Assembly (NCBI RefSeq): GCF_000744775.1
Contig: NZ_JQMP01000003.1
Span: forward strand, 1,302,001-1,366,000
Length of the DNA: 64,000 nt
Reading direction: 5' to 3'
Origin: Thermorudis peleae
Lineage (GTDB): Bacteria; Chloroflexota; Chloroflexia; Thermomicrobiales; Thermomicrobiaceae
Positions 9,593 to 29,575 of this stretch are shown one piece after another. The notes under the pieces are model-generated. The model had not been told where the DNA came from. It searched no databases and saw nothing but the letters and a program-made list of their open reading frames with translations. Position 1 is the stretch's first letter. Every line of letters begins with the position of its first letter. Both the position numbers and the translations under genes were made by a program.

Positions 9593-10804
9593 CTAACAAG
9601 CGGCAAGGGCGTGTTCGAGGTCGGCGATAATATCCTCCGGGTCCTCAATACCGACCGAAAGCCGGACGAGCCCTTCCGTGATTCCCATGATCTGGCGTTG
9701 CTCCGGCGGGACGTTGCGGTGTGAGGCCATGATCGGGTAGAGGACTTCGGTGTACACGTCGCCGAGCGTTGTGGCGGGCACGATCATGCGGAGGGCGCGT
9801 AGGAACCGGAAGACCCGCTCGCGCGTGCCATCGCGAATCTCGAACGCGACCATCGCGCCATAGCGGCCGTCGGGGTAGAGCCGCCGCGCGGTTACGTGGC
9901 TCGGATGTGTCTCGAGCCCTGGGTAGTAGACCCGGCTGATACGTGGATGCTCGGCAAGCCAGCGTGCAACGATCGCGGCATTGTCACACTGACGCTGCAT
10001 GCGTAGCGGCAACGTCTTTAGCCCGCGAAGAACGAGCCACGCTTCGAACGGACCGAGCAGGCTACCGATGGCCTTGTTCATCTCGTTTAGTTCCCAGCGG
10101 CGATCGGCACTGGTGGCGATAACTCCGGCCATAACGTCGCCGTGGCCGCCAAGGTATTTGGTGGCGCTGTGCAGGACGTACTCGGCCCCGAGCGTGCCTG
10201 GGCGAATGAGGTACGGAGTGGCGAACGTACTATCAACCACGAGCTTGACCCCGTAGCGATGTGCGAGTTCTGCGAGGGCCGGAATGTCGGCGACACGGAG
10301 GAGCGGGTTCGAAATCGCCTCGCAGAGGACAAGTCGTACCCGCCCGTTGCCGGTTACAAGCGCCTGTTCGACTGCTGCAAGGTCGAGAATGTCGACAAAC
10401 GTTGTCTGGACGTTGAGCTGATGGTAGACAGCCTTGAGCAAGGTGATGGTCTGCCCGTAGAGATCGTGCGACGCGACGATCTGGTCGCCAGCTTCAACGT
10501 TGGCGAGGATGACAAGATTGACAGCAGCCATGCCCGAACCGACGGCGATGGCCGCTTCTTGCTCTTCGAGCGCGGCTACCGCTGTCTCGAGTGCCTGGAC
10601 GGTCGGGTTACCGTACCGGGCATAGGCGAAGACGCCTTCTGCCCCGCCGAGCGCTGCATCCAACTTCTCGAGATCGTCGTAGATGAATGTTGAGCTTGGA
10701 TAGATCGGCGTAGTGGTTGGAATGAAGTCACGTGGAGTCGGACGTTCGCCGGCATGGACAGCGCGGCTTGCGAAGCGCAACCAGGTGCGCGTTGTGTCGG
10801 CCAT
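9593..10804 (-). CDS. Cystathionine gamma-synthase / gamma-lyase family PLP enzyme
   Basis: A 403-residue Cys/Met-metabolism PLP enzyme. YARYGNPTVQALE, SGMAAVNLVILA, the DSTFATPYLIRP stretch and the Schiff-base lysine K216 in HSATKYLGGHGD are all present. The C-terminal SVGIEDPEDIIADLEHAL is typical. Synthase, gamma-lyase or O-acetylhomoserine sulfhydrylase cannot be separated by eye. It lies head-to-head with the endonuclease III gene. Confidence 0.93.
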   Translation of the reverse strand: MADTTRTWLRFASRAVHAGERPTPRDFIPTTTPIYPSSTFIYDDLEKLDAALGGAEGVFAYARYGNPTVQALETAVAALEEQEAAIAVGSGMAAVNLVILANVEAGDQIVASHDLYGQTITLLKAVYHQLNVQTTFVDILDLAAVEQALVTGNGRVRLVLCEAISNPLLRVADIPALAELAHRYGVKLVVDSTFATPYLIRPGTLGAEYVLHSATKYLGGHGDVMAGVIATSADRRWELNEMNKAIGSLLGPFEAWLVLRGLKTLPLRMQRQCDNAAIVARWLAEHPRISRVYYPGLETHPSHVTARRLYPDGRYGAMVAFEIRDGTRERVFRFLRALRMIVPATTLGDVYTEVLYPIMASHRNVPPEQRQIMGITEGLVRLSVGIEDPEDIIADLEHALAAC

Positions 10805-15696: not shown

Positions 15697-15710
15697 AGGA
15701 GTGACGGTTG

Positions 15711-15797
15711 CCAGGGGTGCGCAGAGGCGCTGAGAGGCTGGGCGCGCGGCCCGCCAACCCTCCGAACCTGATCTGGGTAATACCAGCGCAGGGACGG
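15711..15797 (+). promoter_or_regulatory. TPP riboswitch (THI element)
   Basis: The conserved THI-box sequence is readable in order: GGGGTGC, GCTGAGAGG, ACCCTCCGAACCTGATCT, GGGTAATACCAGCGCAGGGA. It binds thiamine pyrophosphate. A GC-rich hairpin with a T run lies 30 bases downstream, and thiD follows, so control is most likely by transcription termination. The conserved GGGGTGC (15714-15720) can also pair with GCACCCC (15856-15862) downstream of the terminator. Confidence 0.95.
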
Positions 15798-15825
15798 CAC
15801 CGGATCGCGATCCGCTCACTCCGCA

Positions 15826-25780: not shown

Positions 25781-25933
25781 CGTCTGACGCTCCCCCGCTG
25801 TTTCTGACGCACTTTCTGACGCTCGTGCGTCAGGGGAGCGTCAGAAACATTTTCCGCATGCAGACGCGGATCTTTTCGTGCTTTCTGACGCTTCTGACGG
25901 TTCTGACGCTCCTTTGCACGACGTTTCTGGTGT
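25781..25933 (-). repeat. CGTCAGAA element, copy A
   Basis: Member of a six-copy family. Read on the minus strand it has four parts: a head beginning ACACCAGAAACGTCGTGC, two or three GCGTCAGAA-type words, a core containing TCCGC and GCGGA that can pair around an 8-base loop, and an inverted arm GGAGCGTCAG/CTGACGCTCC. A tail with further CGTCAGA words follows. Eight exact CGTCAG/CTGACG hexamers are present. The core resembles copies D and F; the tail (CCCTGACGCACGAGCGTCAG) matches copy E. Confidence 0.9.
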
Positions 25934-26003
25934 CCCTCCTTCCCATGCATGCTTGGCCTGGTGCGCACACGCCGTGACGGCCACCTGCCGCCGGTGCTCG
26001 GCT

Positions 26004-26154
26004 GCTGACGCTCCCGTGGTGGTTCTGACGCTCGTCTGACGCACCCGGCCGTGAGGAGCGTCAGAAGCATTTTCCGCATGCAGACAAGCATTTTCACCGG
26101 TACCCCGCGGGTTTCTGACGCTTCTGACGCTCGTTTGCAGCACGTTTCTGGTGT
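26004..26154 (-). repeat. CGTCAGAA element, copy B
   Basis: Same architecture on the minus strand, with six exact CGTCAG/CTGACG hexamers. The arms GAGCGTCAGAAGC and GCTTCTGACGCTC are perfect complements. The core (ACCCGCGGGGTACCGGTG and ATGCTTGTCTGCATG) is nearly identical to copy E over about 55 bases, while the tail (GTGCGTCAGACGAGCGTCAG, then CCACCACG) matches copy D. Confidence 0.9.
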
Positions 26155-26370
26155 GCAGCAGCCAGGCGTCTCACGGCCTGCCACTCCGCCCAGCGGCTGT
26201 GCCGTCTAGCCGCCTGCCCGCGACACGCACCGGCTGTGCCCGGCTGTGCCGCCCGCCTGGTGGTGCACCGCCCCGCACCCGACCCGGTCTGACACCCCCG
26301 CGGAACGCTGCCACGCCTGCCACACGGCTGGCCGGGCAGCTGCCCGACCGACGCGCCTGACACGCCCCCT

Positions 26371-26526
26371 GTTTCTGACGCCCTGCTGACGCGCTTCTGA
26401 CGCGTTTCTGACGCACCTGACGGTGAGGAGCGTCAGAAGCGTTTTCGGCTTCCTGATGCGGAAAATGACACGCCACCCGCGGGTTTCTGACGCTTCTGAC
26501 GCTCCTTTGCATGACTTTTCTGGTGT
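26371..26526 (-). repeat. CGTCAGAA element, copy C
   Basis: Same architecture on the minus strand, with eight exact hexamers. The arms GGAGCGTCAGAAGCG and CGCTTCTGACGCTCC are perfect over 15 bp. The core begins CCCGCGGG as in B and E but then diverges. The tail is its own variant. It is the copy nearest the secreted-protein gene, 300 bases upstream of its start. Confidence 0.9.
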
Positions 26527-26825
26527 TGCTCACCGGCTGGCTCTCCCCTGCCTGCTTGCCGGGGGTCGCAGTGCGAACAACCAGCCGTGGCCCGCGCACA
26601 CCCTCCAGCCCGGCGTGCGCACCGGCCTCCTGCCCCTGCGCACCACTCTGAACTAATGTGATGTCCCAAACAGCGGCAGGCCGCAGCAACCTCCACGACT
26701 GTCAAGCAACCGTGGGAACCCCACTCTTCCCGTCTCTCCCCGACAATCGAAGTGCGACACGCGCGAGTCCGAACGTGGCGGAGAACGCCGGCGTCATACG
26801 CCACCTGAGAGGGAAGGAGGATCAG

Positions 26826-28136
26826 ATGCGACGACCGACAGTTCTGTTCATTCTTGCTGCGCTGCTCCTCGGGCAGGTTGTCTCACTCGCTCGAGCAGCT
26901 GAAGTATTCGGCTCATACGAGTTCCAGCGGACATGGGAACGTACCGACCTGCCAGTCGCGCAGGGCGTGGTCGCGCGCACCTGGATGTGGGGACCGAATC
27001 CAATTACCCCGCGCCTGGCTGAAGCCTACGCCGAGGCGCAGGACGGCGGACGGTATGTCCAGTATTTCGATAAGACGCGCATGGAGCTGAACGAACGTGA
27101 GCCGTACGACTCGCCGTGGCGCGTCACGAACGGCCTGCTAGCCAAGGAACTGGTGACGGGCAAGCGACAGCTTGGCGACCAGCTGTTCCGCGACTACGGT
27201 CCAGCCCAGATCAACGTGGCCGGCGATCAAGACGATCCCAATGCGCCCACCTACGCCACGTTTACCGCGTTGCTGACCGCACCAGCGCTTCCGGTTGGCC
27301 AGACCATCACCGCCACCCTCGACCGGCAGGGGCATGTCGGCAACGACCCGAGCCTTGCCCGCTACGGTGTCACGGCCGCGATCCTGGTATCGGAAACCGG
27401 CCATACTGTTGCATCTCCGTTCTGGGCGTTCATGCAGAGCAGCGGCATCATCGCCGAATATGGCGCGTTTAAAGAAGGGCCGCTCTTCCCCAATCCGTTC
27501 TACGCGACCGGGTTTCCGATTACTGAGGCCTATTGGACAACTGTGCGGGTCGGCGGGGTGCCGAAGCAAGTCCTGGTGCAAGTCTTTGAGCGGCGCGTCT
27601 TGACCTACACGCCGGACAACCCGCCTGGCTGGCAGGTCGAGGCCGGGAACGTCGGCCAGCATTACTATCGCTGGCGCTACGAGCTTGCGCCCGATGTCGG
27701 CAGCCGGGCTAACCCCATCCCGCTTGGCCAGTCGGCGCTGGTCTACGGCAACTGGGAAATCCGGGTTGTCGACGTGATCCCCAACGCCACGGATCTGGTC
27801 CTTCGGGAAAATCGCTTTAATACGCCGCCCAAGCCGGGCTACCAGTTCTTCATCGCGACCGTCGAGGCGACCTACCACGGTCAGGGTTCCGCACGTTTTG
27901 ACGGAACGTATCGCCTGCGCGCGGTTGGCCCTGCCAATGTGTCCTACTCAACATTTGAAGATGACTGCGGCGTGATTCCGAACGAGATCAGCGATACGGA
28001 AGTCTTTACCGGCGGGACGATCCGCGGCAATGTGTGCTGGCAGGTGCGGTCAAGCGATGCCGCAGCCTTGCTGATGTATGATCGCGAGTCGCCGTCTGAC
28101 CGCTATGTGCCGACCTATTTCCGGCTCGCGCGCTGA
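26826..28136 (+). CDS. Secreted protein, Chloroflexota type, with DUF4352-like C-terminus
   Basis: A 436-residue exported protein. Signal peptide: MRRPTVLFILAALLLGQVVSLARA. The middle (FPITEAYWTTVRVGGVPKQVLVQVFERRVLTYTPDNPPGWQVEAGNVGQHYYRWRYE) is of a kind common in Chloroflexota extracellular proteins. The last ~130 residues (VYGNWEIRVVDVIPNATDLV, FFIATVEATYHG, two cysteines) look like a beta-sandwich DUF4352-like domain. Function unknown. AAGGAGG lies 6 bases before the ATG; a longer frame from 26658 is not needed. It is flanked by oppositely oriented sets of CGTCAGAA elements. Confidence 0.85.
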   Translation: MRRPTVLFILAALLLGQVVSLARAAEVFGSYEFQRTWERTDLPVAQGVVARTWMWGPNPITPRLAEAYAEAQDGGRYVQYFDKTRMELNEREPYDSPWRVTNGLLAKELVTGKRQLGDQLFRDYGPAQINVAGDQDDPNAPTYATFTALLTAPALPVGQTITATLDRQGHVGNDPSLARYGVTAAILVSETGHTVASPFWAFMQSSGIIAEYGAFKEGPLFPNPFYATGFPITEAYWTTVRVGGVPKQVLVQVFERRVLTYTPDNPPGWQVEAGNVGQHYYRWRYELAPDVGSRANPIPLGQSALVYGNWEIRVVDVIPNATDLVLRENRFNTPPKPGYQFFIATVEATYHGQGSARFDGTYRLRAVGPANVSYSTFEDDCGVIPNEISDTEVFTGGTIRGNVCWQVRSSDAAALLMYDRESPSDRYVPTYFRLAR

Positions 28137-28428
28137 GCGCCGGGCGCGCGTGGCAGGCGGTGGGATGGACCGCGTGCTGTCCTGTCGCGCGGTGGACATG
28201 GCGAGCGGCCCCCGGTGCGTGCCGTGGGGCCGTTTCGCTGTTCACGGCCTTGAGCGGGGAGGCAACCCGGTCACGGGCACGTGCGGAAAGCGGCGAGGCT
28301 ACCAGCACAGCGGTCAGGCTGCCCGTGCACGGAGCGTGGCCGGGATCACGGCTGCGACGGGAGGAGGGGGCCATGCCGGGAGCGTCAGACGGCGGGCGCG
28401 GCCAGGGCCGCTGTGCGTGCTGTGGCGA

Positions 28429-28591
28429 ACACCAGAAAAGTGCTGCAAACGAGCGTCAGAAGCGTCAGAAGCGTCAGAAAGTACGAAAAGATCCGCGTCA
28501 GTATGCGGAAAATCGTTCTGACGCTCGTCGCGATCGGGTGCGTCAGACGAGCGTCAGAAGGGCGTCAGAACCACCACGAGAGCGTCAAACG
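28429..28591 (+). repeat. CGTCAGAA element, copy D
   Basis: Forward-oriented copy. Head ACACCAGAAAAGTGCTGCAA, then three GCGTCAGAA words in tandem, core with TCCGC and GCGGA, returning arm TTCTGACGCTCG. Relative to copy F both arms change at the same position (CGAGCG with CGCTCG instead of GGAGCG with CGCTCC), which keeps the pairing. The tail matches copy B. Eight exact hexamers. An extra GCGTCAGA lies just upstream at about 28380. Confidence 0.9.
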
Positions 28592-28675
28592 GACGTCCCG
28601 TCATTGTGCACCGACGGCACGTCGCGCCTGCGGTTGTTGTGCTCGGGCCTAGGCCAAGCACGTGCAGGAAGATGA

Positions 28676-28828
28676 ACACCAGAAACGTCGTGCAAAGGAG
28701 CGTCAGAAGCGTCAGAAACCCGCGGGGTACCGGTGAAAATGCTTGTCTGCATGGGAAAATTGCTTCTGACGATCCCCTGACGCACGAGCGTCAGAAATGG
28801 CTGGGAGAGCGTCAGACGCGTCAGAAGG
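28676..28828 (+). repeat. CGTCAGAA element, copy E
   Basis: Forward-oriented copy. Head ACACCAGAAACGTCGTGC as in A, core nearly identical to B, tail as in A. Seven exact hexamers. One arm has a single mismatch (CTGACGATCC for CTGACGCTCC). Confidence 0.9.
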
Positions 28829-28876
28829 ACGCAGGGGCTGGGGCGTGGTTGCGGCGCTGGTCGGGTGCGCACCGGG

Positions 28877-29110
28877 CTGCCCGTGTGTGCGCGAGGGGGC
28901 TGTATGGAGGGCGAACGCGGGGTCGAGACGGTGGTTATCCTGCCCGTGTGTGCGCGAGGGGGCTGACGTCGGAGCGGACATGGGATTAAGACAACGATGC
29001 CCATCCTGCTCGCATGTGCGCGAGGGGGCTGACGTCAGCGTGGATGCGGGGTCACGAGGGCGGCCGTCCTGCCCAGGCGTGCTCGAGGGGGCTGACGCCG
29101 CCGGGATGGT
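28877..29110. repeat. Tandem array, units of 63, 66, 63 bp and a partial fourth
   Basis: Unit starts fall at 28877, 28940, 29006 and 29069. Each begins with a CTGCCCGTGTGTGCGCGAG-like motif followed by GGGGCTGACGTC in most units. Spacings are all multiples of three, and the + frame reads CPCVREGADV-type repeats without stops. No start, ribosome site or protein family supports coding. It sits between elements E and F. Confidence 0.75.
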
Positions 29111-29132
29111 GCTGACTCCTGCAGGGTGCTGC

Positions 29133-29284
29133 ACACCAGAAACGTGCTGCAAAGGAGCGTCAGAAGCGTCAGAAACGTCAGAAACCACGGGAAGATCCGC
29201 GTCGGCATGCGGAAATTGCTTCTGACGCTCCCCTGCGTCAAGTGCGTCAGAAACGACGGTGGGTGCGTCAGACGTGTCAGAAGG
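29133..29284 (+). repeat. CGTCAGAA element, copy F
   Basis: Forward-oriented copy. Head ACACCAGAAACGTGCTGCAA, arms GGAGCGTCAGAAGC (29154-29167) and GCTTCTGACGCTCC (29218-29231) perfect over 14 bp, core of the A/D type with TCCGC and GCGGA. Six exact hexamers. The tail is a shorter variant. Confidence 0.9.
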
Positions 29285-29575
29285 CCAGGCCGTCGGCTGT
29301 GCCGACCGTGTGTGCGCCTCCGTTGGCGGACGGCTGTGCGATTGGGCTATGAGCCGGGCGGGTCGCGGATGGAGGCAGCCGCTGCAATGGGCGGCCGGTG
29401 CTGGGCTGTGCCGGCCGCGCGTGCGCCTCCGCGGGCGCGCGGCTGGACGGCGGTCACCGGCGTCATGCCTGGTTGCCGGCGGGGACGCAGGCGGCGTGGG
29501 CCGTGAGATGGGCGTGGTCGGGGATGGTGGCAGCATGACGTACCGGTCGTGATGAGCAAACTGGTAGAATGATGG

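Follow-up and report, generated by a model that had tools for sequence, protein, structure and literature searches.

The six repeat copies found in the window (the whole 64,000-nucleotide stretch analysed here, which belongs to contig C3 in a genome of 2.93 Mb) are most probably iteron modules of an element encoding a primase-helicase of the D5/SaPI PriRep type. Such modules normally lie inside the 3′ end of the primase-helicase gene, and in the window they appear to have been orphaned and multiplied (probability about 0.8). The identification follows from the occurrence of the same repeats within the 3′ end of one primase-helicase gene, and of word clusters with a conserved layout at that place in its relatives, and it is documented by homology, place in the gene, word statistics, layout, a predicted helicase fold and the remnant of such a gene beside the repeats.

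The copies are arranged as two inverted triplets around a gene for a secreted protein (Table 1), as the preliminary description had proposed with coordinates and motifs that are all correct. Each consists of 9-bp words (GCGTCAGAA) at fixed spacing and in two orientations, with a core of about 45 bp in the middle. The layout of the words in the window copies is < 20 < 11 < 23 > 46 < 9 < 9 < (arrowheads give orientation), and the spacing is exact in every copy. A ACACCAGAAA head, tandem 9-bp words, inverted arms and a tail had been described for each copy and are all present; CGTCAG, put at six to eight per copy, was counted on both strands as 8 (A), 6 (B), 8 (C), 8 (D), 7 (E) and 6 (F), while the length range of 150–163 bp needs a small correction to 152–163 bp. 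Within 25781–29284 there are 32 occurrences of the octamer CGTCAGAA, against none in the remaining 60.4 kb of the window. Pairs of copies facing each other across the secreted-protein gene are 86–90% complementary over 98–123 bp. The spacer between E and F (28877–29100) contains further direct repeats, of the CTGCCCGTGTGTGCGCGAGGGGGCTG type, which are coding sequence in the related gene on C4 described below. By sequence comparison the secreted protein is one of a large set of chromosomal paralogues in this order; it has no Pfam or NCBIfam match. A tRNA-Lys gene (window 22999) was considered as an attachment site and rejected, as no duplicated fragment of it was found in the sequences compared.

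Table 1. Repeat copies and neighbouring genes in the window.
Feature	Position	Strand	Description
Copy A	25781..25933	-	Orphan iteron module of the left array; collinear with q3-q1 on C4
Copy B	26002..26154	-	Orphan iteron module; q2-like in its left half and q3-like in its right (exchange with A)
Copy C	26366..26526	-	Orphan iteron module; counterpart of q1
Secreted-protein gene	26826..28136	+	Between the two triplets
Copy D	28429..28591	+	Orphan iteron module, q2-like
Copy E	28675..28828	+	Orphan iteron module; at broken end of primase-helicase remnant
Primase-helicase 3′ remnant	28712..29356	-	In frame; 67% identical to residues 875-1057 of C4 protein
Copy F	29133..29284	+	Orphan iteron module; inside primase-helicase remnant

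A DNA search of the whole genome located the repeat unit solely at the window site and at C4:228160-233280, where there are five copies. Two of these (p1 and p2) are opposite the other three (q1–q3) with 3.8 kb between, giving inverted arrays as in the window; the genes enclosed at the two sites are different and unrelated. The left array of the window is collinear with q3–q1, spacers included (84% over 786 bp), and the right array matches q2–q3 in its first part and p2–p1 in its second. Of the 11 copies at the two sites, nine are not part of an intact gene, an uncommon situation among the elements sampled. Scans of GTDB genomes and IMG/VR with the exact core gave zero matches, indicating that the GCGTCAGA version of the module is rare. 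Elsewhere on C4, 46 bp from the 3′ end and flank of a tRNA-Cys gene are duplicated at 96% identity (L031:7328-7373 and 9817-9862). The two stretches, with two genes between them (305 and 232 aa), resemble the ends of a small tRNA-integrated element, in which no integrase was seen; the idea that the repeats are part of this element was rejected, since the arrays lie outside its bounds.

An uninterrupted ORF on C4, coding for a primase-helicase of 1277 aa, contains both p1 and p2 in its 3′ part. The N-terminal half of the protein matches phage DNA primases, and its motifs include a CHC2-like zinc finger, toprim, and Walker motifs including Walker A. The preliminary description had taken the presence of the units inside coding genes to speak against its own account, and these two copies are a case of exactly that. 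In the window, the in-frame remnant aligns with the C4 protein over 205 residues (67% identity), with one 22-residue insertion. The right triplet overlaps this remnant at E–F, suggesting that it grew from such a gene, now mostly lost at this site. Among related genes, the primase-helicase at L068:5996-9529 is 90% identical to the C4 protein over its N-terminal 360 residues and carries a helicase of another class (AAA_25), a recent domain swap. A further, small contig of the genome that contains the window (L226, contig C2, 13,034 bp) has a disrupted primase-type gene, whose product bears an HDAEN-like motif and a repeated tail, as well as several inverted duplicated stretches; it is probably another such element, or an assembly knot.

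Relatives of the helicase were gathered from GTDB genomes and IMG/VR with the helicase-half alignment (A3), and come from many phyla. Of 118 relatives, 86 have their best 8-mer four or more times within 450 nt past the helicase domain, the word being on both strands in 78 and repeated at an exact 9-bp step in 60; the loci are partly near-identical, so these counts are not fully independent. A clear word cluster is absent in the other 32. Control windows reached the same count of at least four in 0, 3 and 1 of 122 cases (gene body) and in 2/99 and 2/101 (flanks). An earlier run over 900 nt, compared with 40 dinucleotide shuffles for each locus, gave 71/121 loci. Of 762 word hits, 696 fall within the ORF, and in the rest of each locus the words hardly occur. 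Each locus has its own word, CGTC is contained in 75/89 of them, and a 15–21-bp core like TTCCGCATGCCGACGCGGA is common to modules with different words. Usually, three direct words at 9 bp are followed by a gap of about 35–58 bp and several inverted words, then by one direct word, a gap of about 31–46 bp and two or three inverted words at 9 bp. Of this layout, the copies in the window have the second half; the leading triplet of direct words is missing. Depending on the strand, a given word falls in different reading frames and encodes different peptides, which places the constraint on the DNA. Some Thermomicrobiaceae primases whose helicase is of the different AAA_25 type (G002, G007 and the C1 paralogue) have clusters at the same place. 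The neighbourhoods of two relatives, one with a serine integrase (L067) and one with phage-type head and repressor proteins (L072), fit mobile elements, as expected. Many primase-helicases of this type appear to have a candidate origin of their own, each with a distinct word, within the final few hundred bases of the gene.

The fold was predicted for a homologue (L104) that is about 65% identical to the helicase half of the C4 protein. The model was built on 58 sequences and has a mean pLDDT of 91.7; a single-sequence fold (pLDDT 43) was discarded. The best match of the 58-sequence model is the SaPI5 primase-helicase (7ola_C; Z 19.0, rmsd 5.4, 354 residues aligned), followed by vaccinia/mpox D5/E5, ASFV PrimPol and NrS-1. 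Solved structures searched by sequence returned mostly ABC-type and other P-loop matches. The end of the model (residues 382–454), just before the iterons, is a small helix-strand domain that we infer to be a winged helix.

These features suggest how the modules may have worked and spread. The intragenic module would most likely be the replication origin of the element itself: the predicted winged-helix domain encoded just upstream would bind the words, after which the helicase would load, melt the DNA and prime. In this genome, one element with the intact C4 gene may have amplified its own module, leaving arrays behind at two chromosomal sites. The gene in the window would then have decayed to its 3′ remnant, with the modules staying as inverted triplets around a host gene for a secreted protein, and the initiator encoded on C4 should still be able to bind them.

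The closest known counterparts are the origins of staphylococcal islands and related elements. SaPI Rep and SCCmec Cch2 each use their C-terminal domain to bind iterons directly downstream of their own gene (PMC7581432), and PICI origins have two iteron sets flanking an AT-rich melting region (PMC6092414). Shared with these systems are a self-loading D5-like helicase (here by predicted fold), iterons right after the helicase C-terminal domain, two sets of words, and words specific to the element (PMC7581432, PMC6092414). As in iteron-type origins generally, the repeats are short, regular and element-specific, and are associated with a gene for a helicase whose fold is of the D5/PriRep kind (as predicted on L104). 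They differ in position, for the SaPI/PICI and SCCmec origins are immediately 3′ of the rep gene whereas the words here are nearly all (696/762) within the ORF. The middle of the PICI origin is AT-rich, while that of the window copies, judged by eye, is not obviously so.

Origins inside replication genes are known from several systems. In the telomere phages PY54 and N15 the origin is inside repA, and RepA, like the protein here, is a primase-helicase. The remaining cases share the position of the origin within the initiator coding sequence but have other initiator proteins: lambda O, in what is described of it in PMC7157519, and repABC repC and the lactococcal replisome organizer genes (PMC3155836, PMC8965321). 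All of these differ from the present modules, which have a 9-bp word grammar common to many phyla and copies outside the gene. Iteron clusters away from the main origin occur in satellite P4, where crr binds the primase-helicase, and in plasmid P1, where incA controls copy number; their words and proteins are different, and the clusters described here are chromosomal and apart from an intact element. Extra copies of phage origins in a host, which the orphan arrays resemble as putative additional origin copies, are represented by the PER sequences of phage Sfi21 and the lactococcal P335 phages (PMC6356513, PMC8965321).

The conservation of their words bears on what became of the orphan arrays. 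When the non-coding arrays A–C and q3–q1 are compared, 17 of the 23 words match exactly, where shifted masks predict 10.2 (p = 0.004), whereas taken as a whole the copies (84.9% identical) have diverged as much as the spacers (86.9%). The comparison of D–E is weaker (p = 0.039), and that of E–F with p2–p1 gives no excess of identical words (p = 0.27). These results give moderate support to the view that words lying outside genes were preserved for some time; a divergence lower than expected makes some function possible, and also allows decay. In a sister genus (L069), the orthologous site has a single copy left, with flanks about 92% identical, and a stretch matching 28077–28559 is inverted, including about 60 bp at the end of the secreted-protein gene; recombination between inverted copies would account for both the inversion and the loss of copies. 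The modules of three other elements (G011, G001 and G007), searched in their own and related genomes, gave only short weak matches beyond the gene and its homologues, so that in the three tested the modules stay single-copy.

Close to an even chance, if a little below it, is given to the view that the arrays are debris with no present role, produced by tandem duplication in a resident element and then by inversion, partial deletion and decay. The truncated primase-helicase remnant, the shuffled order of the copies with the exchange between A and B, the single copy and inversion left at the same site in the sister genus, and the lack of any integrase seen near the arrays all agree with this, but the preferential conservation of words between non-coding arrays and their exact spacing in every copy do not. 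It is slightly favoured over a second possibility, which we consider doubtful: that the arrays are decoy or incompatibility sites, titrating or handcuffing the initiator that an incoming element with matching words would bring, by analogy with the PER of lactic acid bacteria (PMC8965321, PMC6356513). Such a role would suit the excess of identical non-coding words in copies that otherwise diverge as fast as their spacers, the exact spacing, the presence of a cognate initiator gene in the genome and the lack of orphan amplification in the three other elements; the weaker D–E result, the absence of an excess in E–F and the reduction to one copy in the sister genome count against it. Initiation of forks from both inverted arrays, so that induction of an element over-replicates the segment between and increases the dosage of the gene within it, is very unlikely. 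The arrays are paired in inverted orientation around 2–4 kb at both chromosomal sites, but the enclosed genes are unrelated and the inversion could be an accident of recombination. Taken in general, that the inverted arrays are a working device of either kind, capturing the primase-helicase of a matching element in defence or firing to amplify the enclosed gene, is improbable; if true, then with a 9-bp intragenic word grammar that crosses phyla they would be domesticated phage origins.

There is little to commend the view that the words are chance copies of low-complexity peptide repeats in the primase tail, with no function as DNA: p1 and p2 do encode SDA-rich peptides, but the words are found in either orientation and in every frame, where they encode different peptides, and are also kept in non-coding arrays, so the frame and strand pattern contradicts a protein-level explanation. 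Least credible of all is a structured RNA or MITE-like transposon, for although the arms within each copy can form hairpins, the main helix pairs an invariant iteron with an inverted iteron and no compensatory base changes are supported among the copies (covariation term -0.07 kcal/mol), an Rfam scan of the interval found no RNA family, no terminal repeat pair was seen for any single copy, and the copies have moved as arrays, with common spacers, one set being in a replication gene. Among the three guesses first offered for the repeats, RNA structure and a mobile non-autonomous element as then stated find no support, and a protein-binding array fits, the D5/SaPI-type primase-helicase being the candidate protein.

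Read as iteron modules, a previously unnamed repeat becomes a legible signal. Candidate intragenic origins would make the replication origins of phages and satellites predictable from sequence in many phyla, and allow one to ask which chromosomes hold stray copies able to interfere with matching elements. Elsewhere in the window, a TPP riboswitch was found at 15703–15812 on the forward strand (Rfam RF00059, 67.5 bits).
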